A DNA stretch of 64,000 nt, from the NCBI GenBank assembly GCA_956465555.1, contig OY101130.1:62001-126000 (forward strand). The letters are read 5' to 3'. The first letter of the stretch is position 1. Each line of letters opens with the position of its first letter. The position numbers and the translations under genes are program-made. This document shows, one piece after another, positions 25,961 to 57,358 of this stretch. The notes beneath the pieces were generated by a model that did no database searches, had not been told where the DNA came from, and saw only the letters and a list, made by a program, of their open reading frames with translations. The stretch comes from Nitzschia sp. pyKryTriq1. Its lineage: Eukaryota > Bacillariophyta > Bacillariophyceae > Bacillariales > Bacillariaceae.

Positions 25961-26981
25961 TTACTTGTTTGGTTCGTCTTCCTCGTTGCAAGCTGTTCGA
26001 TCTTCACCGGATGTGCTGGAGTTCGATTGAATATCACCACCACTGCTGCTGTTGGTACTCTTCCGAATTGAAACTGGCAGAGGAATTGCTGGTGACAACA
26101 AGCTTGAGAGGAGATGATCGCTGGACATTGGAAACCGCTAGGACTTCCTTAAGCCAGTCCTTGATTTGATTTCGATCTCCTGTATTGCGGGGACACTTCT
26201 CCAAAAGCCCGGCCCATTCTTGGATCTTGGGTGGTACTAGATCCAACGCCGACGAGTCTTGGGAGGAGAGAGCCAAATTGCTATAATCGCTGCTGGAGTA
26301 GCTACTACTATGGCTACAATGTGCGGAGGAATCACTGTTAGCACTGGGGCCGACTCGATGATACTCGACATTGTTGTTGTTGTTGTTGTAATTGTTGTTT
26401 CGTCCTTCCTGGTGAGCGTGCTTTGCGGGTAGTTTGTTCTGGTGAGAAGGGACGAAAAAAGGATGAGTGACGATTCAAGGGAGGAACGAAGACCACCCTC
26501 ATGAGATCAGAGCTCCAAAATATACTACTGTACTCACTTTGTCTGCTATGGGTTGCTTCCTGTGAAGTGGATTATGACGTTCTTCCGACCCTTCGTCCGA
26601 AGAGATAGAGATTTCAATATCATACTTTCGGCGCTTCGATCGGTGATGGTGATGGTGAGGATGATTGTGGCCTCGCCCCTTCCGCTTCTGCGCGGACGTA
26701 AAGTAAATATCGACGCTCCGATCCAGAGCTTCGAGAGCAGTCGCTGCAATGCAAGCGGTGCCGATCTCTGAGGCGCTCGCCACCGCGGGGAACGTTGATG
26801 AGGCGATACTACTACTACTAAGATCACCACAGTTCGATGACGATGCTGCTGCTGCGCCTGCTCCCATCTCTCTCATCAAAGCTGCCGATTTCTCCATATC
26901 TCTCTCGTGCTGGAGCCTAATACTAGATAGATTAGTGCGTTCGTCCTGGGGCTCGAGTTGTTGGTGCTTTTGACTTTCCAT
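25961..26981 (-). CDS. W-LL/WL-VL family paralogue A (2 exons, 3' end frameshifted)
   Basis: Exons 26981-26538 and 26438-26034; intron 99 nt with GTGAGT donor, phase 0; 282 residues to the first stop at 26034. The N-terminus MESQKHQQLEPQDERTNLSS, the HERDMEKSAALMREMGAG box and the ALDRSVDIYF box are nearly identical to the plus-strand paralogue at 36937. The core IQEWAGLLEKCP...IKDWLKEVLAVSNV lies at ~26220-26115. The paralogue's tail (SGGDIQSNSSTSGEDRTA) is still encoded here, but in a different frame, and runs to a stop at 25961. The reading frame therefore shifts at ~26065-26050 and the present protein ends in EEYQQQQWW. Basic runs around HHHHRSKRRKY suggest a nuclear signal. The molecular role is unknown. 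Confidence 0.72.
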
Positions 26982-27091
26982 GGTTCTTCGTTTATATCGA
27001 TGATGATGATGATGATGATATGCGTCGAATTCATTATTATTTTTGTGTGTTTGTGTTCAACCTGCAGATGAAATAATTGCCATATCGGTTC

Positions 27092-27196
27092 CATAAGTAG
27101 GGAGAAGGAAAACCACCATCCTCTTTAAATAATGTAATATCCATACTCAGAATGACGTATTAATTCTAGAAGAACATAAGTAGGGACAAGGAAAAC
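27092..27196. repeat. LTR-start-like fragment between 22-bp direct repeats
   Basis: Two copies of CATAAGTAGGGASAAGGAAAAC-like sequence (27092-27113 and 27175-27196, one mismatch) flank a ~60-base segment. That segment (27113-27174) matches 30107-30167, the outer end of the upstream LTR-like region, apart from one substitution and a few inserted bases. It is probably part of a rearranged retroelement 3' end. Confidence 0.6.
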
Positions 27197-27330
27197 TGTT
27201 AAAGTTCTGATACCACTCGTGACTCGTCACGTGTCTCAACTCAATATCTCCGCTCAGATATACTTATACCTGTTACTACTACTGTGTGATCAAATACAGC
27301 AGGCACAATCCAGAATACGCTCGTCAGTAT
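27197..27330 (-). repeat. 134-bp LTR-end/primer-site repeat, downstream copy
   Basis: Perfect direct repeat of 29422-29555. Read on the minus strand it contains TGGTATCAGA, the typical Copia primer-binding site complementary to initiator Met tRNA, preceded by the end of the LTR. Here it overlaps the last ~90 bases of the gag-protease reading frame, so the final ~30 residues of that protein are LTR-derived. Confidence 0.8.
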
Positions 27331-29391
27331 GCCCAAGTGTACCGTGGTCCATCCTTGCTTGTAAGCAGTCACCGTCTTTCCATTGCCGACAATGATGTCG
27401 ATTTTGACGTCGACTGGATCTCGAATACGTCGGATGTCGGTTATTACATGAGACGTAGAGCCACTGTCCAAAAGGAACAAATTTGATTTCTTTGACTCGT
27501 CGCGCGTAGTGGTCGCACACAGCGCAGTGTCTTTGTCTTCGCGCACGATGTCTTCGAAGCTCCCAGTGTCCGGTCTTGTAGGAACTCCAGCGAATATTCC
27601 GTGCGTGCAGCCATAACAGACATCACCGTGTTTCCCTATTTTTCGACATTGGCAACATAGTCCTTCATCGTCCCGCAGTACTTGTCCTGGTTGTTCATAC
27701 GCCAAGTATGTGTGAAATTCACCCGGTACGAAACACTTCATACACCATGTATCGTGAGGTCCAATGTCGTGACATGTTGCGCAAATTCCGACTCCTTCGA
27801 TCCGCATCTTCTCGAATCGTTCGATTGCATCGGTGGTAACCGTCTCTTCGCGCATCCTCTGGAAGCGTGCGCGATCCTCATCATCACTCAACGGTTCCAA
27901 CATATTGCAGTTATCTTCGCATGCGCCACTCTCACAATAATTGCCGGCGATACCAGTATTCCCGCATTCCCAACAGTATCCAGTTTCAATACCTTCATTT
28001 TCATCGTCATCATCTTCATCGGAGCTGTCAAATGGATTTTGGATCATCATGGTTTGCTCTTGAATACGGTTCATTATCATGTTGGGCGCATCATGGAGAC
28101 CAAAAATGTGTTGATCACAGTCAAACACATGGTCGTACATACATGCAGCTGCTGAGTCGTCGTCCTCGGAATCCGAATCGTTGTCCGTCCTCATCATCAA
28201 ATCAGCTAGCGATTCAGGAAAACTTTCATCAAGGCTACCGTCATCCCATTCAGATTCACGCTCCGCCAATGGTGGCATCGAATCGCAGTCACTTCCATCT
28301 TCCCATTCGGGCTTGCGTTCTGCCAGGGATGGCATCGAACCGCAATCGCTGTCTTCTTCGCACAACAAGCACTGTTCCACCATGACGCCGTCCTCTTCAT
28401 CATCATCTTCTTCGCAAATTTCGAACCAGCTTTTCTTCTTTGACTCGACAACTTGAGTCACACCAACGAACAAGGCCTCCTGTCGCTCACTTCCACCTCG
28501 CTTCTTCGGGCAATTCTTCGACAAATGACCGTTCTGTCCGCAGTTGTAGCATCGTCTCTTCTCTTCAGTTGGTCCGTTTCGGTCTGCCTTTCTGCACTGA
28601 TTGGCGCGGTGCCCCTGCAGCCCGCAGTTATGGCAATTCCCTTTGAATGGACGCCATCCATTTTTGCCACCGTTGGTTCTCTTAAGATTATCGAACATCG
28701 GCTTCTTGACGAATCTCTTCGGTTGATTCCATTCTGTCTCTGCTTTTGGCTCATACACTGCAAAAGCTACATCATTCTTTGACTTCCTGCGGTCATCATT
28801 GAACGATTTCATATCCCGCTTCCAAATGTCGAAATACTCTTCTTTGTAGGATTCGAGCTTCGAATTCTTTTGGGTCTTCAACGTCGATGTTATTTCACGA
28901 TAATGCTCGTTCGCGTTCATCTGCGTTACCACCAGCGAGAGCAACTCGAGATCATCCTTCTCTTTTCCTCCTGCCTTGACTATATCCTTTTGCGCTTCAT
29001 CGATCGCATAGAACCATAGAGTCGGGTCTTGTAGGCCCGGTCCGTCAGTAATCAGCTCCGTAAAGTTAGTGTAAAGCGTAGTCAAGTCATTCATGTCCAA
29101 ATCATCGAATCGTCGTAGGAACGCCTTCCAGATCAAGTACGGATCCGATTGATTTGCCTTAACGTAGTCTCCAGCTGTCTTCTCGCATGTCATCGCGAAA
29201 TAGTACCCTGCTGCGTCTCGCAGCTCTTTGTCCTCAGCGCTTTCACTAATGCTTCCAGCCTTCTGGATCACTTTCCACCACTTCTTTTTCATTCCAGTGG
29301 CGCGCGTCTTGAGCCTGTAGGCTCTCCAGTTCTTGTCATCGCCATTGAAGCTCACCGTGTAGGTCTTCTCGTAGTCCTTATCTTTCGTCAT
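27241..29391 (-). CDS. Copia-type retroelement Gag plus truncated protease
   Basis: Uninterrupted 716-codon frame, ATG at 29391. The N-terminal ~220 residues form a Copia-type Gag (NWRAYRLKTRATG, then helical DLDMNDLTTLYTNFTEL). Two CCHC zinc knuckles follow: CHNCGLQGHRANQC and CYNCGQNGHLSKNC. A long acidic region then carries three CxxC zinc-ribbon-like units of the pattern C-x2-C-x9-C-x2/4-C (CWECGNTG..., CATCHDIG..., CCQCRKIG...). Near the end, FLLDSGSTSHVI is the aspartic protease active site. Integrase, reverse transcriptase and RNase H are absent: the frame runs into the LTR-like repeat and stops. It is therefore a deletion derivative that could move only with help. The intact frame over 2.1 kb suggests it is young. 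Confidence 0.85.
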   Translation of the reverse strand: MTKDKDYEKTYTVSFNGDDKNWRAYRLKTRATGMKKKWWKVIQKAGSISESAEDKELRDAAGYYFAMTCEKTAGDYVKANQSDPYLIWKAFLRRFDDLDMNDLTTLYTNFTELITDGPGLQDPTLWFYAIDEAQKDIVKAGGKEKDDLELLSLVVTQMNANEHYREITSTLKTQKNSKLESYKEEYFDIWKRDMKSFNDDRRKSKNDVAFAVYEPKAETEWNQPKRFVKKPMFDNLKRTNGGKNGWRPFKGNCHNCGLQGHRANQCRKADRNGPTEEKRRCYNCGQNGHLSKNCPKKRGGSERQEALFVGVTQVVESKKKSWFEICEEDDDEEDGVMVEQCLLCEEDSDCGSMPSLAERKPEWEDGSDCDSMPPLAERESEWDDGSLDESFPESLADLMMRTDNDSDSEDDDSAAACMYDHVFDCDQHIFGLHDAPNMIMNRIQEQTMMIQNPFDSSDEDDDDENEGIETGYCWECGNTGIAGNYCESGACEDNCNMLEPLSDDEDRARFQRMREETVTTDAIERFEKMRIEGVGICATCHDIGPHDTWCMKCFVPGEFHTYLAYEQPGQVLRDDEGLCCQCRKIGKHGDVCYGCTHGIFAGVPTRPDTGSFEDIVREDKDTALCATTTRDESKKSNLFLLDSGSTSHVITDIRRIRDPVDVKIDIIVGNGKTVTAYKQGWTTVHLGILTSVFWIVPAVFDHTVVVTGISISERRY

Positions 29392-29421
29392 CTTAGAACT
29401 CTAGACTGTCGTTTTAAAACG

Positions 29422-29555
29422 TGTTAAAGTTCTGATACCACTCGTGACTCGTCACGTGTCTCAACTCAATATCTCCGCTCAGATATACTTATACCTGTTA
29501 CTACTACTGTGTGATCAAATACAGCAGGCACAATCCAGAATACGCTCGTCAGTAT
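29422..29555 (-). repeat. 134-bp LTR-end/primer-site repeat, upstream copy
   Basis: Identical to 27197-27330. On the minus strand it is the 3' part of the 5' LTR followed by the tRNA-Met-type primer site and a ~30-base leader before the gag ATG. This is its expected place in a Copia element. Confidence 0.8.
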
Positions 29556-30168
29556 ATCCCTTTTCGAATTGTGAGCTAAAGCAAATTAATTCTATTCTAC
29601 CTTTTGTCGTTTCATCCTGACTTCACGAATAGAATAAGATCATCCAAGACTAACTTGTCATAGATCTTCAGTTCACTTTATCTCCTTTCCCATATATCTC
29701 TCCAACACATATCGTCGATCTGATCTTACTTTGTTTCCAATCCGGTCTTACTTTTGTATTCCAAGATCACAATCAGTTTAGTTCATATATCTTGATCATA
29801 GCATCCGAATCGATTAAATCAGTGGATTCAAGTCCCGAGTAAATCTCCAGTATATTGTATGACTCGTTTGATACGCCCGGTCGGATGCCATCCGACCTCG
29901 CTCATTGTCTGTTCATACATCAATCCGAACTTCGCCCATCTCGCGTTAGGACCAATCAATTCATTTAGATGAGTTCGCGAGTAGTGCCCGTATACTTCAA
30001 GTTGGCATTTTGTTTCCGTTATCGAACCGTTTCTCATCGTCTGCACTTCATCCGTCGGGTCTCTCCGTGTTTGACTCTTCCGACATAAGTGCATCTTCAA
30101 CAGAAAACGACCATCCTCTTTAAATAATGAAATATCCATACTCAGAATGACGTATTCTAGAAGAACAG

Positions 30169-31715
30169 TAGTTTTCAATGAACCTTGAATCACACACAGG
30201 AACGTTTCACGTCTGTCCGTCGCGCACGTTTCTTCATTATAGGCATATATATAGTCATATACGACATCATCAGGACACACGACGGATTGCAAGCAATGCG
30301 AGGTCTGTCATCCGTCACGAGGTTTGTGACGCGTCGCGAATACATCGCGACGCGTTGCGACGTGTCGCGACACGTCGATCGTTCCACAAACGAGGAGGAA
30401 CGTCAAGAGACCAAGGAGGAAGAAGAATCACGAAAAGCAGCAATCGCAGCAGCAAAAAGAGAAGAAAGAATGAACCGCGAACTCAAAAGACTGCAAGCAT
30501 CATACAACCCCGCAGCAGGCATGAAAGAACAAACAACAACATTTCGCGGAAGCGACGGTCAAGAAACGGAAAAGACAGTCAATTTCAATTTCGCACATGA
30601 TCAGACGAACTACTAGCAATACTACACGACACGGGACTGAAGAAGTAGTCCCACGAGTCATCAGTCAGCTGACGAAGAACAGACTACGGAGATTTCAACA
30701 GCGGTACACTGTACTTCTACGAAGAATCATCATCATCATCATCGCCGCGATGTTCCATCTGCGGTCCCAACAATCCACCTAGTATCTGCACACCAAACGC
30801 TGTCTGCGACACAAAACAAGCCAGTTGCAGTATTCTAGTGTAGGGCATAGGTTGTAAGCATTTGTCGTCGAACCACGTAGAATGAGTACCATAGGATTGG
30901 TCATCACTAAATATTAAATATCTCGCCGAATTTACGTCCTTTGCAGTTCATGCCAATGGCTCGACACCTCGAAATAAGACGCGCTTTCAGATTATGTAGT
31001 TTGTTTGACGGTGAGACGTTTTGTTCCAGACGTCACTTTTGGGATTTTCTTTCAGCAATCACGAGTTTTTAGTACGGCACTCATGCACGATCATGTGGTA
31101 CGATTTCTACGTATTCCACTAGGCGACCATTCAGATTTGCGCCAGCTGTAGCGATGGGGGTTTATCCACTCCTCGTTCTTACTTACCGGTGACACTAATA
31201 ATCATGCCCCTTGATAATCGATCATGGATTCGGAGTCGTTCCGAAGAGGTTCAGTGTCCAACAGCAATGTGCACGTGAAAGAACAAGAACAGGCGACTTT
31301 GTGAAACAGTACTACCTTTTGGATATGCCCCGTCCGCTGTGGCTGATTCTTCTGTTCTGTGGTGGCCGCAAATTTCCTTCTTCGAATGAATGTGTCTGTT
31401 CTCCAGGGTCCGCAAAATCTTGACGTGAGTGTTGGACGGCTACCCGTGCGTACCGGTACAAGTACGAGTAGGGCCCTACCACTCAGTCTTTATCTCCTCT
31501 CCGCTGCTTGCTTGATGTTCTCCAAAAAAGTAAACGAAACCAGAAAAGACAAGGCAAACGCTGCTGGCAGCAGCCACCGGCATCTCAAAGTATTGATATA
31601 TTTACAACACAGCACAGCACAATAATACATGCGTATCCTGTTGCTGTCACCATCAGAATAACCCTCTCTCAGCTCTAGCAATACAGCAGCAGCAGCAGTA
31701 GCAGTAGCAGCAACC
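30169..31715. other. Intergenic region between the retroelement and paralogue B
   Basis: About 1.5 kb. A plus-strand open stretch with ATG at 30296 (106 codons, ending 30616) has a Glu/Arg/Ala-rich helical centre but no recognisable family and no paralogue, so it is not called. Bases ~31240-31430 are similar to ~38430-38700 upstream of paralogue E (shared CAGTGTCCAACAGCA and GGCCGCAAATTTCC). This points to a duplicated 5' region of the W-LL family genes. A CAG/TAGCAG run ends just before the paralogue B start. Confidence 0.45.
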
Positions 31716-32931
31716 ATGAGCGGCCGCCAACAACTTGGGTTTGAAACTGAAGATCAAAAGTCCGTGAGAAAAAGCCACGAGAATTCTGCCGCCTTGTTGC
31801 AAGAAGCAGGAAAGGCAGCGGCGTCTTCGTCGTCAAATCAACACCAGCGGCAGCACTGGGAAGCTGTTCATCATCGCGGAGGAGGTACTAGCACCAGCAG
31901 TATCAGCGGTAGCGTCAGTAGTATGAATACTACTTCTTCCCAAATACTATCGAAAGAGGCACTGAATGCCTTGGATCAAACGGTCGATAAGTACTTCACT
32001 ACTTTGTTCGGCGTTGGAACCTCGGCAGCGGGAGTCACGAGTAGCAGTGGCAGTGGCAGCGGGTCGTCCAAGAATCACGACAGCGCCAACATCAACGGAA
32101 CAAGCAACAGGAGTGGTCATCAAAAGAATGGCACTAGTAGTAACAGCAAGGGAGATTCCTCGCGTACTTCATCGACTGCCAGCGATAAGCCATCCTCATC
32201 GGCGGCAGCAGACGCTACTAGTAGCAATGGAGCCAACTCTACTAACGAAGAAGGATCTTCTTCTTCGTCTCAACCGGATATCAGGGTACGTAGTACTTCG
32301 CATCCAATCCAAACTAACAAAATTATTGGCAACCTATCTGCTACTACAACATACTCACCTACTATATTCATATTACCCACTGCAGGCTGCGATTCATCCG
32401 ACCGAATGTTCGCCCAAGAAGCGCAAGATCTCCGAGACTGCCGCATTACTCTTAGGACCATCGTCCGGCAATTTCAAACGAGCCCGAGGCAAAGCCAGAT
32501 CGAAGAAAGCAGCACGACGCGCTTCCTCAAGCAGCAGTGACACGAGTGAGGATAATATTTCGTCTGCCATGATGAACAATCCGAATTTCAATGACTGGGC
32601 TGGCTTGTTGAAGAAACGACCCAACGATGAAAGTATGAATCAAGAACAAGTACGAAACTGGCTCATGGAAGTCCTAGAAGTATCCCGCACTCAAGACAAT
32701 AACAACCTGAACGGACCTCTCAAAGTTTCGTGTTCCAGTGGTGCGTCGGGTACCAGCGGTTTTCACTCGGCAAGTGGCAGTGGTGGTGATAGCAGTAGTG
32801 AACTGGATCGGACGGATCTTCAATCCAACTCGAGTTCGTCAGGGACACGCAGCAACGACGCTGATGATGCTGCCGGTAGCAATCGTTCGGATGGAAGCTC
32901 GGTGGATGAAACGGAAATCAATGAAGAGTAA
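31716..32931 (+). CDS. W-LL/WL-VL family paralogue B (2 exons)
   Basis: Exons 31716-32285 and 32386-32931; the 100-nt phase-0 intron has a GTACGT donor and a CTGCAG acceptor; 371 residues. N-terminal box MSGRQQLGFETEDQKSVRKS then HENSAALLQEAGKAAASS; middle box EALNALDQTVDKYFTTLF; a Ser/Asn/Gly-rich linker; after the join, HPTECSPKKRKIS and a basic KRARGKARSKKAARR stretch (likely nuclear signal); the core NPNFNDWAGLLKKRP...VRNWLMEVLEVS (~32577-32685); and the acidic/Ser tail SSELDRTDLQSNSSSSG ending SSVDETEINEE. The intron changes the frame, so unspliced reading would give a wrong tail. Function unknown. It is the best-preserved member of its subgroup and closest to paralogue E. Confidence 0.75.
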
Positions 32932-33495
32932 TCGACCCGGGAATGCATACAATTGTACAAACAAAGAACAGGAAGATGCATCTACTCTAGGTACATGCCA
33001 TGGGTGGGTGGACCATCAGGGTTAGCATTCGACCCAAAAAGTACGAGGATGACCGCTACTTGAGTAACAACTACATTTCGTACATTCAAGGAGGAAGATC
33101 AAGCACGTGTTGCATCAACGTAACCATAATATCATGGCTAGTAGTAGCCTCACAGACAGGTAAAATAAAACTACATTACTACAACGACATCATAATATCG
33201 TTTGAGCACTCCTCTCGCTCTAGTAGTAGTAGCAAGAGTTGACGAGTCCTCCTCACACACAAATGAGCTTTGAGAAAGTCTACTCTCTACTCTAGCTAAC
33301 TACTCTACTACTAGAGTAGAGACTGAGAGAGAGAGAGAGAGAGAGAGCGTTGTATTCGGAGTGAATCAAAATGGTGTCCTGTACTAGCGTGGTCCCCAAA
33401 AACAGAGGTACCACCAGGAATAGAAACTCAATTTCGTTTATAACGTACTATATGAGGCAGGAAGAGTCTTTAGATTTACTTGTCGATGCTATTAT
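32932..33495. other. Convergent intergenic spacer
   Basis: 3' ends of paralogues B (plus) and D (minus) face each other across ~560 bases with CTACTCTA repeats and a GA dinucleotide run (~33326-33347). No gene is seen. Confidence 0.35.
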
Positions 33496-35269
33496 TTATC
33501 TGTGTTTCATTTTCTTCTCTACGTGCATCTGTTCGTTGCCCGACGATGACGAGGGCCTTTTAGCGTCGTGATGATTGGTATAGTTCTTCTTTTCAATCGC
33601 GCCACTACCTGATTCTGAGCTTCCCATGGTGCTGCCGGCGCTCAAGCTTGAGGACGCTTCTCGGGGCAAGGTATCACCGTCGTTGGAGCCGGAGCCACTG
33701 GTTGGGTCATTGGTTGATGTATCCACACCTCCGGCGTCCGTATTAGAGCCGGAAGGAGATTCTTCAGTTGAATTCCTAAAGTCACTAACGACTGGTAGCA
33801 CGTATTGATGCTGAGGCCTTTCGTTGTGCTCGCCGCCGCCAGAAGAGCTTTCGCTCGGTCCAGAGGAGTCACCGGAGCCCATGGTCTCGCTGGATGAGGA
33901 GTTCCATCCTGCACCTCCATTTGCACCAGACCCACCAGCGCTGCTTTCATATGACGAGGACGATTCATTCTCATTTGATGCTTCATTGGACTCAGACGAG
34001 CAGTGTTGCTGATCGTTGTTATTGCTGCTGGGGGCATTGGTGTTCGCATTCGACGAGTTTCCACCCGCATCACTGATTTCTAGAACAGCAAGAAGCCACT
34101 TGGACATCGCATCTCCTTCTGTGTCGAGAGGCCGTCGGCGAAGTAACTCTCTCCACCGCCTTTGTCTCTCATCTTCTTCGTCGTCGACAATAGTCTCTGG
34201 ATTTTGCCCTCGTCCAGTTCTGCGTTGGAAAACCAGGTTTCTCATTGGCGCATCGTCACTTCGCTGTCCAACTCCTTGTTCATGATCTCTCTGCGCAAAA
34301 CGGTGGTTGCGATGAGGTGCGTTACCTTCATGGCTACGACGACGTTCTTCTTCTTCGTGGTGTTGGTGTCTTCTTCTTGAAGGTGGTTGGTGTGATGCAT
34401 CAAGAACTGGTGCAGACGCGTGTTGGTTGATATCATTCGAATGTCGTCGCTGCGATGCTTGCTGCTTCTTTTCCCTGGAAATGACCATGCCGGCATGCTC
34501 GTGACGCTGACGGAAGTTCCGTTTGGCCACAGGAATACCACAGACGAGGCAGTAGGCAAACTTCACTCCCCCATCCCTGCACTGCGGGAACGAACAGAGG
34601 AGGTCCTCGCCGTGCTTTACATCCCGTGATATTTTAAATACCGCTGACTGTAATCGACATTAAGAACACAAAAAGAAAAGTGAGAATCAATGTTTTATCA
34701 GACTGATGGTTCAAAATATCATCACGATGCCTCGCGACAAATAGTACTGAAGCAAGAATTCCTCGAGTTCGCTCGCTCCTGAGGAAGAGATAAGCAAAGC
34801 TATTGCTTACATTTGAGTTGTGATCCGGAGGCATGGCTCGAGCTCTGCATGGAACGATGGAAAAAGTCCCTGGCATGGCTTTGTCGGAATGATTATGGTT
34901 GTGGTGGTGACGTTTCTCGCTAGATTGCTGTCCGCTCGTCTTGCCATGATGGCCCGCCTGCTTGCTGTCGTGCACTCCTGGTGGTGGTGCGTGACTGGTG
35001 GGTGCTGATGGACTTGAATGGTTCGCAATGGTTTTGGACCGTTGCTGTGCAGCTTGTTGCAGTCCGAAATGCTGAAGAAGCATTTGACCAGCAGCTTCAG
35101 CGACGGACGAGCTCATGGGCTCGTGAGGAGGCTGGTGACCCGAGGCCAATCCCGAGGATATCGCGTTAAGGAGCTGTGAGGCCAATTGAAAGTTTACGGT
35201 CGAGCCGTTCGTAGTACCGGCTCCCATCCTATCGCTGTTTCCGCCATCTCTGTCGTTGCTTAAAGTCAT
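33496..35269 (-). CDS. W-LL/WL-VL family member D with an added zinc-finger-like module (2 exons)
   Basis: Exons 35269-34811 and 34647-33496; the 163-nt phase-0 intron has a GTAAGC donor and TTACAG acceptor; about 536 residues. Exon 1 encodes a Ser/His/Gln-rich segment (LASQLLNAISSGLASG; HHHNHNHSDK). Exon 2 begins SAVFKISRDVKHGEDLLCSF and contains a C-x4-C-x9-C-x2-C-x12-H-x-H cluster around CGIPVAKRNFRQRHEH, a likely zinc-binding module I associate with diatom proteins of unknown function. After a His/Gln/Arg-rich linker comes the family core RQRRWRELLRRRP...MSKWLLAVLEIS (~34170-34070), then a long Ser/Gly/Glu tail ending EKKNYTNHHDAKRP and KKMKHR. It shares only the core with the neighbouring paralogues and is the most divergent member. 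It may represent the ancestral architecture. Confidence 0.68.
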
Positions 35270-36400
35270 CTTGCTTCTTTGTATTGTTGTTGCTATTGTA
35301 GTATTTGTAGTTGTAGTTGTAGTTGTTGTTGGTGGTGTTCCTGCTTCTTGCTCAGTTTTATGACAACAACTGCTTGTGGATGTGTTTTCGTCGTTTTTTT
35401 ATCGTCTAATCGTGCGTGTAATTAATTTGTATGAGTTTTACCGTGTGATCATGTCCGTACAACCCTGTAGATTCAGTGCTGCGGTACCATAGCACATTTG
35501 TTCGTAGCGTTCGCGCACATCCGTGGTCCTCGATTTCAGCAGATGCTTCGACAACCTTTCCGCCGAACATGCCCCCCAGACACCTGAGTAGTGGCAACTG
35601 GCACCGTGTCGTATTTAACAAGAGCGAAGGGCTGAGTTAATGAATAAATGTCAGTTAATTGATAAGAAGGTTCTCACATCCAGCTCTTCAATGATCTTCA
35701 GGTTCTCTAATTTATTTTTCCTACAACAACGTCACGGTGTGACGAGCAGAACTGAACTCAGTCCGTACTTCATCCGTCAGCCGCCCGGCGCGGTCGAGGA
35801 TGACCACACGAATGCCAGTTGTACAGTACTTCCAAGAGGAACACACAACGTCCAACGACGTCCAACGATGTCCAACAACGTCAAATAACGTCCAACACAC
35901 GTCCAAGACGTCCCTCCCAAGATGTGCAAGACGTCCAGACGTCTCAAACGTCCAGATAACGTCCCGATAACGTCTAGCAGCGTCCAGCAGCGTCCAGCAA
36001 CGTCGCAAACGCCTACATGGCTAGTAGGGGACGGCTGAAGAGGACTAATTCTGGACATTTTGCCGAGTATTCCTGTCGATCCCGGCGGAGTCGCCTCCAT
36101 TGATACGGTTCTCTTCGGTTCTCTTTCCTAATTAGGCCATGCATTAAGTAAAGAATTGTCGGAGTCGCAACGAGCACGAGGGGGTGGTTCGGATCAGTGT
36201 CGAAGAGGTACATAAGAACAGGTACTTGGTAAAGGTACGCACGTACCACGTATGCTTGAGAATATTTATTGCACACACTCCGTTCGATCCGCCTTGCTTC
36301 CGCACCTTCTCCTTCCCCGTCTGTCGGAATCATCGCACCGACCGCCACCGACCGAGATCCAGTAGTGTCGTGTTGCCAAGGAATGTTCGTCTTCCTGCCC
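35270..36400. other. Intergenic region with a GGACG minisatellite
   Basis: About 1.1 kb between paralogues D and G, containing TTGTAGTTGTAG repeats near the D start (~35290-35335), the minisatellite at ~35838-36012 (listed separately) and a conserved flank. No gene is supported. Confidence 0.4.
35838..36077 (-). repeat. Dispersed GGACG minisatellite element, copy 1
   Basis: On the minus strand: a 46-base flank (GGAATACTCGGCAAAATG ... CTCTTCAGC) at 36077-36030, followed by ~170 bases of imperfect 8-11-base units such as TTGGACGTT and TGGACGCTGC. The flank and the first irregular units match, in opposite orientation, the copy starting at 56206. This shows a mobile or duplicated repeat family rather than local slippage. 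Confidence 0.75.
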
Positions 36401-36832
36401 TACTTAATGCGGGAACAGATGGCGAGCAGGAGGCATTTTGATGTTGAATATCCGCCTTTGCCCGGAATTTAGTGGCCAGCCAGAAAGAGGGAGATGACGA
36501 TTTTTTGTTTTACAAGAATACTGTACCAGTAATACTGTACTCGTTACTTAATGCGGGAACAGATGGCGAGCAGGAGGCATTTTGATGTTGAATATCCGCC
36601 TTTGCCCGGAATTTAGTGGCCAGCCAGAAAGAGGGAGATGACGATTTTTTGTTTTACAAGAATACTGTACCAGTAATACTGTACTCGTTACTTAATGCGG
36701 GAACAGATGGCGAGCAGGAGGCATTTTGATGTTGAATATCCGCCTTTGCCCGGAATTTAGTGGCCAGCCAGAAAGAGGGAGATGACGATTTTTTTTTAAC
36801 AAGAATACTGTACCAGTAATACTGTACTCGTA
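36401..36832. repeat. Three tandem copies of a 144-bp unit upstream of paralogue G
   Basis: Units start at 36401, 36545 and 36689 with TACTTAATGCGGGAACAGAT. They are nearly identical; the third loses a few bases in its T run. The array ends about 100 bases before the ATG at 36937, inside the likely promoter or 5' leader. No open frame or RNA hairpin explains it. Confidence 0.9.
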
Positions 36833-36936
36833 CACGAGAGGACATACTGTAAAAAAGCACACAGCACACTCACACACACACACACAAAATGAATCGACGC
36901 AGCGCATCACCATTATAATATATCAACGAAAGAACC

Positions 36937-38046
36937 ATGGAAAGTCAAAAGCAACAACAACTCGAGCCCCAGGACGAACGCACTAATCTATCTAGTATCA
37001 GGCTCCAGCACGAGAGAGATATGGAGAAATCGGCAGCTTTGATGAGAGAGATGGGAGCAGGCGCAGCAGCAGCATCGTCAGCGAACTGTGGTGATCTTAG
37101 TAGTAGTAGTATCGCCTCATCAACGTTCCCCGCGATGGCGAGCGCCTCAGAAACCGGCACCGCTTGCATTGCAGCGACTGCTCTCGAAGCTCTGGATCGG
37201 AGCGTCGATATGTACTTTACGTACGCGCAGAAGCGGAAGGGAGGTCACAATCGTCCTCACCATCACAATCACCGATCGAAGCGCCAAAAGTACGAAGCTG
37301 AAAGTACTAATAGTAAGACTAATACTCCTGATGGCAGTAGCGACATCTCTACCTCTTCGGACGAAGGTTCGGAAGAAGGTCATAATCCACTTCACATGAA
37401 GCGAACAACAGGAACACGTGCACCCGTGGAAGACAAAGTGAGTACAGTGGTATATATTTTGGAACTCTTCTTGAATCGTCGCACTCATCCTTTTTTCTTT
37501 CTTTCTTTCTTTCTTTCTCAGAAACTACCCGCTAAAAACAGGCGAAACAACGAGCAGCATCACGCTCACCGAGGAGGACGAAACTACAACAACAACAATG
37601 TAGAGTATCATCGAGTCGGCCCCAGTGCTAACAGTGATTCCTCCGCACATTGTAGCCATAGTAGTAGCGACTCGAGCGATGATAGCAATTTGGCTCTCTC
37701 CTCCCAAGACTCGGCGTTGGATCTAGGACCACCCCAGATCCTAGAATGGGCCGGGCTTTTGAAGAAGTGTCCCCGTAATACAGGAGATCGAGATCAAATC
37801 AAGGAGTGGCTCAAGGAAGTCCTAGTGGTTTCCAACGTCCAACGATCAGCTCCACTCAAGGTTGTCACCAGCAGCAGCAGCGGTTCCTCCTCTGCCAATT
37901 TCAACAGCAGCAGCAGCAGCAGCAGCAATTGCTGGGAGAGTGGTACTAACAGCAGTGGTGGTGATATTCAATCAAATTCCAGCACATCCGGTGAGGACCG
38001 AACAGCTAGCAACGAGGAAGACGTACCCAACAACAAGTTAAAGTGA
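36937..38046 (+). CDS. W-LL/WL-VL family paralogue G (2 exons)
   Basis: Exons 36937-37437 and 37522-38046; 84-nt intron with GTGAGT donor and a CTTT-rich tract before CAG; 341 residues. The intron is a multiple of three without a stop, so it can look coding (it would insert LFLNRRTHPFFFLSFF), but paralogue A lacks it in the same place. Boxes: MESQKQQQLEPQDERTNLSS, HERDMEKSAALMREMGAG, ALDRSVDMYF, the basic HNHRSKRQKY, the core ILEWAGLLKKCP...IKEWLKEVLVVSNV (~37740-37845) and the tail SSGGDIQSNSSTSGEDRTA. It is the intact counterpart of A; their 5' flanks (CACACAAAA...AACGAAAGAACC before ATG) are also similar. Function unknown. Confidence 0.76.
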   Translation: MESQKQQQLEPQDERTNLSSIRLQHERDMEKSAALMREMGAGAAAASSANCGDLSSSSIASSTFPAMASASETGTACIAATALEALDRSVDMYFTYAQKRKGGHNRPHHHNHRSKRQKYEAESTNSKTNTPDGSSDISTSSDEGSEEGHNPLHMKRTTGTRAPVEDKVSTVVYILELFLNRRTHPFFFLSFFLSQKLPAKNRRNNEQHHAHRGGRNYNNNNVEYHRVGPSANSDSSAHCSHSSSDSSDDSNLALSSQDSALDLGPPQILEWAGLLKKCPRNTGDRDQIKEWLKEVLVVSNVQRSAPLKVVTSSSSGSSSANFNSSSSSSSNCWESGTNSSGGDIQSNSSTSGEDRTASNEEDVPNNKLK

Positions 38047-38974
38047 TGATATGTCAGCACGCATACATACTAGGAAGTTTATTTTCTTCCAACTATAGTA
38101 ATAGTAGACGAAATTCTCTACCAAATAGTACCGGTAGTACAATACTAGCCTCTACTACTAACATTCGACACCAAATTCTAGACCGCCGACTTACGACTCA
38201 AGCAAGCTGCACATCCAGCGAGACGAGAGCGCGCCACAAGTAGTTGCTTGCCATCTTCGATGATGATGATGATGATGATTCCACGCGACATGCATTCGAG
38301 AAGAGCGAGAGGTAGTTCTTGCCCCACCCCCCCCCGGCCAGACACAGGGAGAACCATACTGTACAAACTGGTACGTACCGTACGATACATCTTCATTAAA
38401 CATGCCCCCCCCCTGCCCTCCTTGCGAGGTTCATCAGTGTCCAACAGCATTGTGCACGTGAAACAGAGAACCAACCGACATTGTGAAATACTAGATCCAT
38501 TTAGATATGCCCTTTCCGCTATTGAACCGCTATTGAAGTTTCTGGAGATGGTCGGAGTCGACATGACCACGTAGGCAAGAATCGGCATTGGCAAGAGTCA
38601 ACTTGAAGGAGAACATATTGTACACACCAGGCACTAAATTCAACAGATTCTCCTGTTCGGTGGGGGCCGCAAATTTCCGGTTTCTCCGTCCCTCAAGCTG
38701 CAGCAGAGTCAGTCAGCAGGCGGCAGCATGCAGGGTCCGCTAGCTAGCAGATGCTGCGCAAAAATAATAATGATCTTCAATCTTCACGTCTTTTTGCGTT
38801 CCTCATCACTCACACTCTCCTCTTTCCTGTACGCCCTCTGCTCTGCTCTGCCCTGTTGATAAAAAAGTGATATAATACTGTAAAACAAGGAGACTTTATC
38901 ATCTATTATCGCTGGCAGCAGCTAATAGCAACCAACAACGATCACCACCATCAGGATAACCCACCCACATAGCT

Positions 38975-39014
<40 letters not shown>

Positions 39015-39022
39015 CAGCAATC
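38047..39022. other. Intergenic region upstream of paralogue E
   Basis: About 1 kb. It holds an ATGATGATG run (~38256-38278), C homopolymers (~38327-38337 and 38404-38413), a region similar to ~31240-31430 (upstream of B), and a CAG repeat (~38980-39010) immediately before the E start. No gene is seen. Confidence 0.4.
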
Positions 39023-40351
39023 ATGAGCGGCCGCCAACAACTTGGGTTTGAAACCGAAGATCAAAAGTCCGTGAGAAAAAGCCACGAGAATTCTGCCGCC
39101 TTGTTGCAAGAAGCTGGAAAGGCAGCGGCGTCTTCGTCGTCAAATCAACACCAGCGGCAGCACTGGGAAGCTGTTCATCATCGCGGAGGAGGTTCCGGCG
39201 CTAATAGCACCAGCAGTATCAGCAGCAGCAATACCAACAACACCAATTCTGCTTTGCTTCTTCCCAAATACTATCGAAAGAGGCACTGGATGCCTTGGAT
39301 CAAACGGTCGATAAGTTCTTCACTACTCTGTTGCACGTAGGAGCCTCGGCAGCGGGAGTCACGAGTAGCAGTGGCAGTGGCAGCGGGTCGCCCAATAATC
39401 ATCATCACAAGAACGCCAACGGAAGCGACATTAGTCATGGAAATGGCACTAGTAGAAACAGCAAGGGAGGTTCGTCACGTACTTCATCGACTGCCAGCGA
39501 TAAGCCATCCTCCTCGGCGGTAGCAGATGCTAGCAGTAGCAATGGGGCCAACACTGCCAACGAAGAAGGATCTTCTTCTTCGTCTCAGCCGGATATCAGC
39601 AGGGTGAGTGCTCATGGTCTGTTGGCTGGGTTGTATAATATGATGTATGCATATCGTGCCCATCGTACAATCCAAACTAACAAAATCTTCATTGTTTGCT
39701 ATTACTAACCTTCTACAACATGGCACACTGTAGGCGGCTGCCAGTCATCCGACCGAATCTTCTTCCAAGAAGCGCAAGATGATGATCCCCGAGACTGCAG
39801 GATTACTGGTCGGACCATCAGCCGCTGCTGCACCGGCCGGCTCGTCCAAACGAGCCCGAGGCAAAGCTAGATTGAAGAAAGCACGCGCCTCCTCGTCCAG
39901 TAGCAGTGAAGCGAGTGATGATGAGGGTACTAATAGTGGTTCTTCAGCCATGATGATGAACAATCCTAATTTCAATGACTGGGCTGGCTTGTTGAAGAAA
40001 CGGCCCACCAATGATGATATGAACCAAGAGCAAGTACGAAACTGGCTGTTGGAAGTCCTGGAAGTATCCAGTATCACCCAACAACAAGGCAATAATAACA
40101 ACCTGAACGGACCTCTCAAGGTTTCGTGTTCCAGCAGTGGCAATAGTCGGTCGGGCAGTACCAGTTGTTTTCACTCGGGAAGCGGTGGCAGTGGTGGTGA
40201 TAGCAGTAGTGAACTGGATCGGACGGATCTTCAATCCAACTCGAGTTCGTCAGGGACACGCAGCAACGACGCTGATGATGCTGCCGGTAGCAATCGTTCG
40301 GATGGAAGCTCAGTAGATGAAACCGAAATCAATGAAGAACCAGGTGAATGA
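39023..40351 (+). pseudogene. W-LL/WL-VL family paralogue E, frameshifted in exon 1
   Basis: By comparison with B: exon 1 39023-39603, intron 39604-39733 (GTGAGT...TGTAG), exon 2 39734-40351. The N-terminus is identical to B for over 50 codons (MSGRQQLGFETEDQKS...). At ~39255-39265, however, the frame runs into LLLPKYYRKRHWMPWIKRS and stops at 39340. The expected box (ALDQTVDKFFTTLLHVG) and the rest of the protein continue intact in another frame through the intron to the stop at 40351: core NFNDWAGLLKKRP...VRNWLLEVLEVS, tail RTDLQSNSSSSGTRSNDAD. No plausible micro-intron explains the shift. It is either a recent pseudogene, a sequencing or assembly error, or a site of programmed frameshifting. 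Confidence 0.68.
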
Positions 40352-40918
40352 ATGAATATAGCTAAATGTACAAACAAACAGCAAGATGTACCATGCATGG
40401 GTGGACGAGCAGGGTTGGTCTTTGACGCCAAGAGGATGAGGATGACATGATCCCTACTGTAGTAGTAACGACTACTGTACATACATTTCGTACATTACAA
40501 GCGGAACATCAAGCAAGAAGTGTTGCACCAGTATCAGCAACAGCATAACCATAATATCATTGCTACTTTGAGCACTCTCCTCTATACTACTACTAGAGCT
40601 CTTGCTACTGGTAGCATTGAAGAGTCGGTCCTCCCAAGCTATCAGTAAAGTGTACCGGTACCGCCCTCTCTAGTAGTAGTAGCGGTACACGAAGTCCCTC
40701 TACTATCAGCAGCCCTCTCTACTACTAGCTATGGTACTCTATAGACTCTCTTAAAGTTAGTAGTGGTAGTAAAGTAGAGAGAGCGTGCAGTTCGTTCTGG
40801 GATCATTCTTGTACATCAAGCAAGGGCTATCCGTTTTCGGTTGGCATGCAGCAGACTTCGCCGATGCGATGATGAACCGACCAATATATATGTGCCCTTC
40901 AACTACTGTTCGAGTACA
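40352..40918. other. Intergenic spacer left of the foldback element
   Basis: About 570 bases rich in TACTACT/GTAGTAG words and short GTACCGGTAC palindromes (~40653). No gene is supported. Confidence 0.35.
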
Positions 40919-41592
40919 TACGAAACCTCATCTGTACCACATCGGAATTTTGGCGCGACGGCCCGCCCGCGCGCTGACGCTACTCCGACTGCTACGCTTC
41001 CGACGTCCATGACAAATGGCCTAAGGCCTTTTTCTGTTGTCTGTCAGTCGTTGCCCGTACAGTCGAAAAGTCGAAAAGTCGAATCCTCTACTAATCGATT
41101 AATCGAATCCACAAATGGCAGTTACAAAATAGTCCAGAAAATTTACAAGTCCACAGCGACCTCTGACATTGTGTTGCATGTGCTTGTGTTTATTTGTTTA
41201 TTACTTTGTATGAATTCGTTCGATCATTCGGTTATTCGAACAGTTGATTCTTCTATCTTTCTACTATTCGAATCGTCTCATGTCAGAAGTCACTTTGGAC
41301 TTGTAAATTCTTGGGATTATTTTGTATCTGCCATTTCGTGGATGTCAGAGGTTGCTTTGGACTTGTAAAGTTTTTGGACTATTTTGTAACTGCCATTTGT
41401 GGATTCGATTAATCGATTAGTAGAGGATTCGACTTTTCGACTTTTCGACTGTACGGGCAACGACTGACAGACAACAGAAAAAGGCCTTAGGCCATTTGTC
41501 ATGGACGTCGGAAGCGTAGCAGTCGGAGTAGCGTCAGCGCGCGGGCGGGCCGTCGCGCCAAAATTCCGATGTGGTACAGATGAGGTTTCGTA
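40919..41592. mobile_element. Foldback (MITE-like) element with 250-bp inverted arms and TA flanks
   Basis: The left arm (40920-41169) is an almost perfect inverted copy of the right arm (41342-41591), with only a handful of mismatches. The arms are separated by a 172-base spacer. The outer ends read CGAAACCTCATCTGTACCAC, and TA lies directly outside each end (40919-40920 and 41591-41592), as for Tc1/mariner-type or Stowaway-like insertions. The spacer's right part is a degraded copy of the arm's inner end (GGACTTGTAAA...TGCCATTT). There is no transposase frame; long open stretches on both strands simply reflect the palindrome. It would need a transposase from elsewhere. Confidence 0.75.
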
Positions 41593-41609
41593 AAGCATCG
41601 AATAAATAA

Positions 41610-41733
41610 TGAATACTCCGAAATCCATCTGGCCAAGAAATCGACGTACGCACGCACGCCCTTCAAGTTCTGAATACTCCGAAATCCATCTGGCCAAGAA
41701 GTCGACGTACGCACGAATTCGCCCTTGAAGTTC
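41610..41733. repeat. 61-63-bp tandem duplication
   Basis: Two adjacent copies (41610-41670 and 41671-41733) of a unit beginning TGAATACTCCGAAATCCATC and ending CAAGTTC/GAAGTTC, next to the right end of the foldback element. They differ by a few changes around the CGCACG repeat. Confidence 0.85.
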
Positions 41734-42128
41734 TGGTAAGTACTTATTCTGCGTAGAAAAGACATTTTTATGGGTTCTGAATGCCCTTCTTCGTTCGACT
41801 ATTTTTATTTAGTTGTGGTATTTTATGCACTCGTACTGCTGGTACATGGTACATGATTCTACAGCCGCCTACGCATGCAGCAGCACAGCACAGAGAACAC
41901 AACATCGCTAACAACTGTACCGGTATTGCACGGTGCAGTACTTGTGGAAATAGTCTTTTACTACAGTACTACAGTCTACTACAGTCTACAGACGTCTACG
42001 CGCGAAGCGAAACCGAAAATTGCTTGATTTTGTTTTTTTAGCGTTACAATTTTCGTGAAAGAAAAAAAGAAACAAACAAACAAACAAGTATTGTAAGACA
42101 TAAGTAATATCATACCATCATCCATACC

Positions 42129-43637
42129 ATGAGCGGCACCAATATTAGTATTAGATTTGAAACGGAGGAGCAAAAGTCGATGCGTCGAATGCAAGAGAAC
42201 TCGGCGGCTCTGATGCAAGAGGTGGGCAAGGCTGCGCCGGCGGCGAGCGGCAGTCCGAGTACTAGACACAACAACAACAACAACAACGCGGTTGGCCGCA
42301 GCATCACCAGCTCCAGCGGCGGCGATTCCGAGCCATCGGCCTCTCGTTCCGCAGCCACTACGTATACTACCACAACTAGTAGTTCACCCTCACTTGCCTC
42401 GCAAAAGCTATCCAAGGAAACATTGCAAACCTTGGACGAAACTGTGGATTTCTACTTGACGTCGGGGAGAAATATTAATCATAGTATTCATACTGGAGGA
42501 GGAGTGATGGCACCCGGAGGACCGTTGCGGGAAGAGTACATCCAGAGAAAGCAGCAGCAACAGCAACATCAGCAACAACAACAACAACAACAGTATGAAT
42601 CCTCCTCGTCTACAAGTCGCTCGCCTCAAGAGAAGCAACAACAACCGCGAGATAAGCCAAATCCAGAAGATGTTCCTGTAAGTACAAATCTATTTTTGTA
42701 GAAGTCAACAGACGCTACTACCTGCTTCACTGCCTGACACTGGAACGTGCTTGTGGATATATACTCACTCTTTATTTTTCTGCTACTACTTGTTGCTTGC
42801 CTACTATAGGAGGTACTAGCTTCTGCTGCTTCTGCTGATTCCTCCGTTCCTCATGTAGCCGCCGCCGCCGCCGCTGCTGGTACGGGACGCAAGAAGCGGC
42901 CTTGTGGAGAAATGGGCGATGCCCATCACAATGGCATTCTTGGCAAGAGCAGCCATAATGATATCGGTCACAAGAGACCGAAACAAGGTGACGACTCCCA
43001 GCACGACACCGGTCGTGGCCCAAGCAATACTTCGGAATCGAGTGAAGAAGACAATAACATGGAGATTGTGCCTGATCACTTGAAGAAGCCTAGTATGTAC
43101 GAATGGGCGAGATTGCTCAACAAACGACCTAGCGATGCCAGTAATCGTGATGAAATCAAAAATTGGTTGTTAGAAGTTCTACGAGTCACTGCTGCCAGTG
43201 AGGCCGACGATGAGCAAAACCTCAAAGTCACTTGTTCCTCCTCTGGTGGTGGCACCAGTGGTGGTTCATCGTACGGGGGAGCGACCTATGATGAGTATGA
43301 GAGCAGTAGCAGTGATTTAGATCGGACCGATCTACAATCCAACTCGAGTTCTTCTTCTGGAAATTTAATGAGGAATCATCATCATCAGCAGCAGCAGCAA
43401 CATCAGCATCGTCAACAAGAAGCGGATACTCGATCGGATGGAAGCTCGGTAGATGACTTGGAAGCGAACAATGAAGAACGATGGAATCATCATCATCATC
43501 ATCGTCATCATCATACTGGAAAAGAGCAAGCAGTCGCTTCAACAAAACCCGCTACCGACACACAACAACAACAGCAGCAGCAGCAACAACCGCAGCAACA
43601 AACCCAGGAAGAGGAAGTCGCAGCCAAATCGGGCTAG
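42129..43637 (+). CDS. W-LL/WL-VL family paralogue F (2 exons)
   Basis: Exons 42129-42677 and 42810-43637; 132-nt phase-0 intron (GTAAGT...TATAG); 458 residues. N-terminal box ISIRFETEEQKSMRRMQENS then AALMQEVGKAAPAASG; middle box KETLQTLDETVDFYLTSG; a Gln-rich linker; exon 2 starts EVLASAASADSSVPHVAAAA and has a basic GRKKRP. The core is PSMYEWARLLNKRP...IKNWLLEVLRVTAA (~43087-43190). The tail keeps SSSDLDRTDLQSNSSSSSG and RSDGSSVDDLEANNEE but is extended by Gln/His-rich repeats. It is intermediate between the B/E and A/G subgroups in the core and closest to B/E in N- and C-terminal boxes. No disruption is visible, so it is probably functional. Function unknown. Confidence 0.75.
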
Positions 43638-43936: not shown

Positions 43937-45374
43937 CTACGATTGTTTTTGTTCTGGTGGTGGTTGCTCCTGAGGACTCGCCGACGCAGCTGCCGTACTA
44001 CTACAAACAGATCGAATCATTTTCATCGCGGAAGTAGTGTGCTTGTGCTGGGACCCGAGCACAGATTCAAAAATACCTGCCGCACGGACCCAGTATGTGA
44101 CGGCTTGGTTCGATTTGTTCCATTTGTGATGTGCCTTGCCAAGTTTGTAGTACAACATAGCGCACGCCACTTGGGTTCGGCCCAAGTATCCATTTTCGGT
44201 GGCCAAGGCAGCTTCGTACTCTTTGATGGCTGCTTCGGGACTCTTGTTAATATCCAGCAACCAATCCCCCGTTTGCTCATGACGTACCGACTGCGGGATG
44301 GATTCGACATACTCTGTAGCGACAGATTCTTGGTACCCCATGTCCAAGATCAGCTCCACCATTCGCTCCACAATCTTGATGGTATGTCGATGGTTTTGAC
44401 CGTATTTGGAATAGAAGATCACCAAGGCTTGACGGTACTCCACCACGGCACGATCCCAGTTCTTCTGTCGATGGTAGCATCGTCCAATCTTGTAGTAGAG
44501 ATCTCCACAGTCGGCCAAGGGCCGCCCGGGGACGGCAGGATTCAAGTGACGACGAAGGTATTCGAATTTGACGGCCGTGCGGTACGCATCGATGGCTCGA
44601 TCATACTTGCCACTGTCCTTGAACGAATCACCCTTTTGATCTTGTTCAATGCAAGTCATAAACTTCTTCCAATACAAGTCCTTCTCCTTTTCGGTCTTGA
44701 CTCCTTTGGCGTCCAGGGACTTGTTGATCCAGTTCGAGACGACATGGCACTTGTCTTGATTACCATCAGCCATTTCGTATTGAATTCGAAAGCATCGATA
44801 GAAGTCATCGAGAGCACGGTCAAATTCATCTTGCAAAAAATGAATCGTTCCAACCCACAGATAACATTTGGCCGTTTCGGGATCGTTCCTTCCTCGAATA
44901 TCCTCACGGATTTCCAAACTTTGTGAGAATTCTCGCATGGCATTGTCGAGATCCGAGTCCGTCCAGTAGTTCAAGCCCGTATCGAAGTACTCTTTCGCCA
45001 TTTGTAACTGAAACTCTTCTTGCTCGTTTCGTTCTTCCGTTCCATCCATAAACATTTCGACTGGCATATCGCCCAGCAGGCCAAGATCGTCGTTGTCATC
45101 CTCGACATCACATTTGATTCGAACGGCTTCGATTTCATCCTGAGAAGAAGAAGAAGAAGAAGTTTGAGTACGGGGGCATGACTACGTGTATGATGGCTCA
45201 ACAATATCTTGGTATTCAATTTCTACTTACGAAGGATTCTTCAACATTCTCCTCTGGAGTCGTCACAGCGGCTTCCGCCGACAGCTTTTCTCCATCGGCA
45301 TGGTCGGGGGCAGAGAAACTCTCCGCCGGAGTCAATACAGTTGTGGGAGACTCTCCTCTTTGTTCTTCGGCCAT
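43937..45374 (-). CDS. TPR-repeat protein 1 (2 exons)
   Basis: Exons on the minus strand 45374-45231 and 45139-43937; 91-nt phase-0 intron (GTAAGT donor, CTTCTT tract then CAG); 448 residues starting MAEEQRGESPTTVLTPAES. Exon 2 carries a series of tetratricopeptide helices: QMAKEYFDTGLNYWTDSDLD, AMREFSQSLEIRE, AKCYLWVGTIHF, ALDDFYRCFRIQYEMA, GDSFKDSGKYDRAIDAY, DLYYKIGRCYHRQKNWDRAV, AAIKEYEAALATENG and LYYKLGKAHHKWNKSNQAV. These repeats form protein-binding scaffolds, and the arrangement resembles kinesin-light-chain-type TPRs. The end is Ala/Gln/Pro-rich. It lies head to head with a paralogue (46210). The partner proteins cannot be told from sequence. Confidence 0.85.
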
Positions 45375-56205: not shown

Positions 56206-56600
56206 TCCCTGGAATACTCGGCAAAATGTCCAGAATTAGTCCTCTTCAGCGGTCCCCTGGACGTTTGCGACGTTGATGGACGTTACTGGACGTTATCTGG
56301 ACGTTTGAGACGTCTGGACGTCTTGCACATCTAATGACGGACGTCTTGGACGTTCGTTGTACGTTATTGGACGTTATTGGACGTTATTGGACGTTACAGG
56401 ACGTTATTGGACGTTGTTGGACGATGTTGGACGATGTTGGACGATGTTGGACGATGTTGGACGTTGTTGGACGATGTTGGACGATGCATGTTGGACGATG
56501 TTGGACGATGTTGGACGAAGTTGGACGAAGTTGGACGAAGTTGGACGAAGTTGGACGAAGTTGGACGAAGTTGGACGATGTTGGACGATGTTGGACGTAG
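56206..56600 (+). repeat. Dispersed GGACG minisatellite element, copy 2
   Basis: Starts with the conserved flank (ATCCCTGGAATACTCGGC...) shared with copy 1, then irregular units, then a regular 10-base array TTGGACGATG/TTGGACGAAG (~56410-56597). Because the unit is 10 bases, all three plus-strand frames are open and encode the same GRCWTMLDDV-like repeat; these are not taken as genes. Confidence 0.85.
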
Positions 56601-57025: not shown

Positions 57026-57358
57026 TGGACGTGGTTTACGTGGTTGGACGATGTTGGACGATGTTGGACGATGTTGGACGATGTTGGACGATGTTGGACG
57101 ATGTTGGACGTTGTTGGACGTTGTTGGACGAAGTTGGACGATGTTGGACGATGTTGGACGATGTTGGACGATGTTGGACGTTGTCGGACGTTGTCGGACG
57201 TACTCTGGACGTTTGCGACGTCTTGGACACGTCTTGGAAGTGTCTGATAGACGTCTTGAACGTTAGTGAACGTTTGGGAACGTTCGTGGACTTTTCGGAC
57301 GTTTCGGACGTTCTTTGTCCGATCGGCGACGTTTTGCCGAGTATCCCTGGCGTTAGGA
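57026..57358 (+). repeat. Dispersed GGACG minisatellite element, copy 3 (inverted end)
   Basis: About 17 units of TTGGACGATG (~57048-57180), then irregular GGACGTT units, ending GACGTTTTGCCGAGTATCCC at ~57334-57353. This last part is the inverted form of the end that opens copy 2 (GGAATACTCGGCAAAATGTC), so 56206-57358 is bounded by inverted ends. Confidence 0.8.

Follow-up and report, generated by a model that had tools for sequence, protein, structure and literature searches.

Hairpin-only genes clustered beside a Cys/His-box relative in a diatom genome: members, almost certainly, of a larger and apparently unnamed family

In a 64,000-nucleotide stretch of the genome of the diatom Nitzschia sp. 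pyKryTriq1 (bases 62001–126000 of contig C16, which is 1,281,402 bases long; hereafter ‘the window’), six genes for low-complexity proteins, A, B, D, E, F and G, lie close to one another. The initial annotation took them for a local expansion of an undescribed family held together by a short Trp/Leu-containing core. Do these copies form a family of their own, confined to this locus, or are they part of something larger, and what might their proteins do? The genome searched for an answer comprises 40.65 Mb in 20 contigs; it also contains 72 light-harvesting family matches and eight silicon transporter family matches, seven with E-values no higher than 3.7e-262 and the eighth at 2.4e-134, which mark the host as a diatom.

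The six copies sit at the positions given in the initial annotation, and the core they were said to share is common to them. An HMM made from 18 cores, all of them from genes outside the window to avoid circularity, was run with filters off against the 921 window ORFs of 40 or more residues, and it matches every copy (E 2.5e-14 for D, 9.9e-9 for F, 1.3e-8 for E, 1.5e-8 for A, 9.9e-8 for B and 3.6e-7 for G). The seventh-ranked window match has an E-value of 0.91, and the best from 20 sets of shuffled ORFs is 0.018. By this measure, the hairpin core W..LL..RP…WL..VL.[VI]S is found in six of the six. A local expansion is supported, as was first proposed, with copies in mixed orientation, two of them damaged (A and E), and mobile-type elements between them. 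A stand-alone local family is not supported: the same core occurs in some 21 zinc-box genes, D among them, spread over 11 contigs, and in seven zinc-less genes. With its single full-length gene and five hairpin-only ones, the window cluster almost certainly belongs to a larger diatom family, about 28 genes of which were found in this genome.

The Cys/His box that distinguishes D had gone without mention in the initial description. In full-length genes its consensus is PCRARGMPxDHN…HG..L.CS…C…G.KF.YC..C..PVAKRNF..RH.H, and it is paired with the same hairpin, W..LL..RP…WL..VL.VSD. The proteins are laid out alike, with a low-complexity N-terminus, the Cys/His box, a basic, Ser-rich linker, the hairpin and, mostly, a Ser/Asp/Glu-rich tail. 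Three queries (D, C2:2493847 and C13:1295653) each returned the same 22 zinc-box places on 11 contigs, nearly all of them at E 5e-8 or better with each query. The exceptions are C2:795941 (E 0.006), C11:893277 (0.087) and C5:2090328 (1.8e-6) with D; C2:795770 (9.6e-8) and C11:893409 (1.9e-7) with C2:2493847; and C11:893376 (1.9e-5) and C2:795785 (0.065) with C13:1295653. The genes at C2:795 kb and C11:893 kb are the two weakest, and in these an intron splits the box, with each query matching different parts. Two of the C11 places (L015 and L062, C11:892598-893522) appear to be one gene, with two zinc boxes in a row followed by a single core, and so the 22 places are counted as 21 genes, both numbers being lower bounds. 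Only one of the 22, D, lies in the window; the box is absent from A, B, E, F and G, which are members by virtue of the core alone.

Eighteen of the 22 boxes were aligned, leaving aside L002, L006, L061 and the first C11 box; the PCRARGMP part is missing from six of these rows. Thirteen positions are invariant among them: A19, H29, C35, S36, C40, G44, F47, C50, C53, P56, F62, H66 and H68. The box probably binds zinc. The PCRARGMPxDH part was found in 17 boxes, and was not within reach in five of the 21 loci. In 13 of the 17 (D and 12 others) a phase-0 intron, with splice sites and phase read by eye, falls three codons past the His of this motif; 12 of these introns begin with GT and one with GC, and the remaining four boxes are uninterrupted.

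The core accompanies the box in all 21 zinc-box genes: the 18 of the HMM, D, L017 and L005. In the HMM genes and D, it shares one open frame with the last part of the box; in L017 it occupies a separate frame beside the box (E 5e-12), and in L005 it is degenerate (E 0.0043). It is a 36-residue hairpin in which W7, L10, L11, P15 and W26 are invariant among 26 aligned cores, from 19 zinc-box and seven hairpin-only genes, L005 and L017 being left out. Structure prediction, which the initial annotation had recommended, gives two helices: in the AlphaFold2 model of the six window cores these span residues 12–20 and 29–53, with block-mean pLDDT values of 88–94 over residues 11–40 and an overall mean of 72.7.

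Copy D, on the minus strand, is a full-length member of 536 aa when spliced. Its first exon (34811..35269) ends in the PCRARAMPPDHN box, within 34811-34888; its second (33496..34647) carries the remainder of this zinc-like Cys/His box (within 34477-34647), a basic linker, the core at 34024-34197 with flanks, and a Ser/Glu-rich tail. Copy A, also on the minus strand, is hairpin-only. Its exon 1 (26538..26981) is an open frame with the N-terminal SAAL and LDRSVD boxes and a GT donor, and its exon 2 (26034..26438, to the in-frame stop) holds the core and its flanks at 26082-26258; the product to the stop is 282 aa. The other four are on the plus strand. G, a near-duplicate of A, has exons at 36937..37437 and 37522..38046, the latter with the core at 37705-37881 with flanks and the QSNSS tail (341 aa). 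B has exons at 31716..32285 and 32386..32931, the second encoding a PKKRK basic cluster, the core at 32554-32751 with flanks (the E 9.9e-8 match) and the QSNSS tail (371 aa). F, with exons at 42129..42677 and 42810..43637, has its core at 43062-43256 with flanks, and a tail (458 aa). E is interrupted by a frame change before 39259 in its first exon (39023..39603), the second frame being open from there on; its second exon (39734..40351) is open, with 205 codons in frame, the core at 39938-40147 with flanks, and a tail. B, F and G are fully open after splicing.

A phase-0 intron at a common place and a common QSNSS tail had both been claimed for A, B, E, F and G. Each of the six copies has one GT-AG intron. 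It is of phase 0 and leaves an open frame after splicing in B, D, F and G, and in A as far as its stop; D differs from the rest, its intron lying inside the Cys/His box. The tail of A is present in the DNA but out of frame, beyond the stop at 26034.

Several repeats and other genes share the window with these copies. Between A and B, at 27192-29555, is a Gag-like ORF of 716 aa with a CCHC zinc knuckle (E 1.5e-7), flanked by 139-nt direct repeats that are 99% alike. Between E and F, at 40919-41592, is an inverted repeat whose 251-nt arms are 98% complementary and enclose 172 nt; it has the look of an inverted-repeat element. A 144-bp unit is present three times in tandem at 36401-36831 (TRF, 99% matches), and about 105 bp separate the end of this array from the start of G downstream; TRF listed no 144-bp array of that sort before A. 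Arrays of related 10-base units (GTTGGACGAT, ACGTCCAACG) occur at three places, 35848-36004, 56258-56597 and 57043-57200. Beyond F, two neighbouring ORFs in opposite orientation, 43937-45067, which has TPR matches, and 46210-49011, have the stretch EYFD.G..YWTDSD.DNAMREFSQSLEIREDI in common and appear to be diverged duplicates.

Where else do hairpin-only genes occur, and how are they related? Core searches found two besides A, B, E, F and G, at C16:170667 and C16:173525, approximately 65 and 68 kb beyond F, with open frames of 146 and 309 aa. All seven are on contig C16, in two clusters that each contain full-length genes as well; the second includes three, at C16:175104, 180429 and 184205. 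The three top matches of C16:173525 are its full-length neighbours (47–55% in the core). The nearest relative of D is C2:491532, and the window hairpin-only group does not join D. In the core tree this group falls together on a branch (97/96) that also takes in L016, a zinc-box gene with a long branch, and a single clade of all seven hairpin-only genes is marginally rejected (p-AU 0.045, from 37 columns only). Within the window, B/E and A/G are duplicate pairs, and F is the most diverged of the five. A genome query with the N-terminus of F gave no match with an E-value under 0.03 apart from B and E, and because it missed A and G its sensitivity is not very high; an exon-1 profile of A, B, E, F and G matched only cluster members among the loci fetched. 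Queries with single cores are weak, and may have overlooked hairpin-only genes elsewhere that have diverged.

B and E are 88.1% and 86.2% identical in their two exons, 68% in the intron and 48% in the 600 bases upstream; A and G, with corrected borders, are 94.6% and 85.9% identical in exons and 62% in the intron. Eleven of 12 coding gaps in B/E, and nine of ten in A/G, are multiples of three, 20 of 22 in all, the other two being the sites of the frame breaks in E and A. Comparison of dN/dS between copies, also recommended at the outset, gives 0.39 for B/E, 0.83 for A/G, and, for exon 2 of F and B, a rough 0.25, dS there being above 2 and saturated. Differences within the pairs are clumped: between B and E, the first 57 codons have a dS of 0.056 and exon 2 one of 0.386. 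The longest identical run in this pair, 129 sites at the 3′ end, was reached in none of 10,000 permutations, and stretches at the 5′ end are nearly identical, too. For A/G, the longest run was reached in 128 of 10,000 permutations, and the combined length of the top three runs in three of 10,000. Gene conversion is the likeliest cause of this clumping, since amino-acid constraint alone would leave synonymous change undiminished.

Pfam provides no convincing match to family members, and NCBIfam none at E 0.1 for the second exons of D, F and B; no characterised domain was matched convincingly, in keeping with the initial annotation, which could name no known family. An NrtR winged helix (PF21906) was considered for D and rejected, its 21.4 bits being below the cut-off of 27. 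Searches of PDB gave no relative by sequence, and none by fold for the core. Viral contigs and prokaryotic genomes supplied no confirmed relative, and four motif strings of the family appear in no paper of the open-access library searched, subscription papers and other diatom proteomes lying outside the scope of the search. Within the literature and databases searched, then, the family is apparently unnamed and undescribed.

What might such proteins do? A regulatory or interaction role, as first suggested, is plausible, and the chances that these are nuclear regulators seem to us evenly balanced. Together, composition and basic clusters (such as KKRKI in B, KKRKM in E and RKKRP in F) suggest proteins that would be nuclear and largely disordered; clusters of this sort fit nuclear import. 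The zinc box would touch nucleic acid or chromatin, or else protein, and the hairpin would provide a shared docking or self-association surface. Since nothing but the hairpin is kept in five of the six copies, these may be partners or competitors of the full-length proteins, a suggestion we make tentatively: they would join the same complexes without bringing a zinc box, and so alter or block the proteins that have one. Full-length nuclear regulators, together with hairpin-only members that modify or block them, is the best overall explanation we can offer, and we hold it with something short of confidence. The two damaged copies and the dN/dS of A/G fit decay equally well, however, and A, G, B and F, at 282–458 residues, exceed typical microProteins in size. 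A fuller version seems unlikely to hold as a whole: an undescribed family of nuclear regulators that combine a novel zinc module with a novel two-helix motif for docking, whose zinc-less docking proteins would have evolved at least twice, near full-length genes on one contig, and would act in trans, kept similar by gene conversion. On the matter of two origins, the core tree sets the two hairpin-only groups apart, by the same marginal test (p-AU 0.045, 37 columns).

Decay is the main rival. The hairpin-only copies might be a dwindling tandem array of little or no function, with the zinc-box genes as the working family, and we consider this somewhat doubtful rather than far-fetched. A has lost the frame of its tail and exon 1 of E is frame-changed; the dN/dS of 0.83 for A/G points the same way, as do the Gag-like element and the inverted repeat between copies, and an N-terminal part not found outside the cluster by the low-sensitivity F query or, among fetched loci, by the exon-1 profile. 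But B, F and G are fully open, dN/dS is 0.39 for B/E and roughly 0.25 for exon 2 of F and B (dS above 2), 20 of 22 coding gaps are in-frame, exons outlast introns and flanks, and there is a second cluster with two more hairpin-only genes. Nor do the copies behave like an artefact of assembly. That they stem from a duplicated contig is barely credible, despite the 129-base identical 3′ run and nearly identical 5′ stretches of B/E, for the pairs differ at 5–14% of aligned exon sites and at some 30% or more in introns and flanks, A and G lie in opposite orientations, and gene conversion is a better account of the patchiness (longest identical run reached in 0 of 10,000 permutations for B/E; 128 of 10,000 for A/G).

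Other rivals concern the proteins themselves. If the zinc box had IBR-like chemistry, ubiquitin would be implicated rather than DNA, and the family might act in the control of ubiquitin or other protein complexes through an IBR- or RING-like protein-binding module, and not on nucleic acid. Weak matches to IBR_2 (PF22605) in seven of 18 boxes (best E 5.1e-4) lean in that direction, as do the only two matches of the zinc-box profile in PDB, 2lwr (SD01679p, E 0.41) and 9c5e (the E3 ligase parkin, E 0.5). Neither PDB match is significant, however, their coverage being just 21 residues of Cys spacing, and D's own box has no Pfam match; on balance we think this improbable. Less probable still are low-complexity cell-wall or secreted proteins, akin to the silaffins. 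Ser, Asn, Gln, Gly and Thr do account for 36–50% of residues, but the products of A, B, D, F and G have no hydrophobic signal-like N-terminus, judged by eye, and in their conserved Cys/His box and Trp/Leu hairpin the family's proteins differ from repetitive wall proteins.

If full-length nuclear regulators and their hairpin-only modifiers are indeed what we are looking at, some 21 full-length genes and seven derivatives in a 40.65-Mb diatom genome have escaped the domain libraries searched, and regulator counts based on known domains would miss the family. Paired full-length and zinc-less genes would offer a clear case in which to test how derivatives limited to interaction come into being and endure, and the zinc box and hairpin core provide two motifs for searches of other diatom genomes.

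How does the family compare with known systems? To the IBR_2 and zf-C2HC5 zinc modules it is similar in Cys spacing in part of the box; it differs in that matches are weak and confined to seven and three of the 18 boxes, respectively (best E 3.6e-5 for zf-C2HC5, PF06221), with none in D. Id proteins, inhibitors of the same single-domain type as microProteins, are another parallel. MicroProteins are single-domain relatives of multi-domain regulators (PMC6003976), and the zinc-less genes resemble these in retaining one domain of a larger family. They differ in that A, G, B and F, at 282–458 residues, are not small, in that they possess conserved N-terminal boxes and a tail of their own, and in that their interaction is putative. 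Heat-shock factors (HSF) have likewise expanded in diatoms into a many-copy regulator family, partly by tandem duplication (PMC4827209, PMC7335047). The likeness is in many copies, some in tandem; the difference is that HSF is a known DNA-binding domain, and one that was not matched among the window members scanned. A survey of microalgal transcription factors identified them by known domains (PMC4827209), and a family built of a zinc box and a hairpin would be passed over by a survey of that kind.
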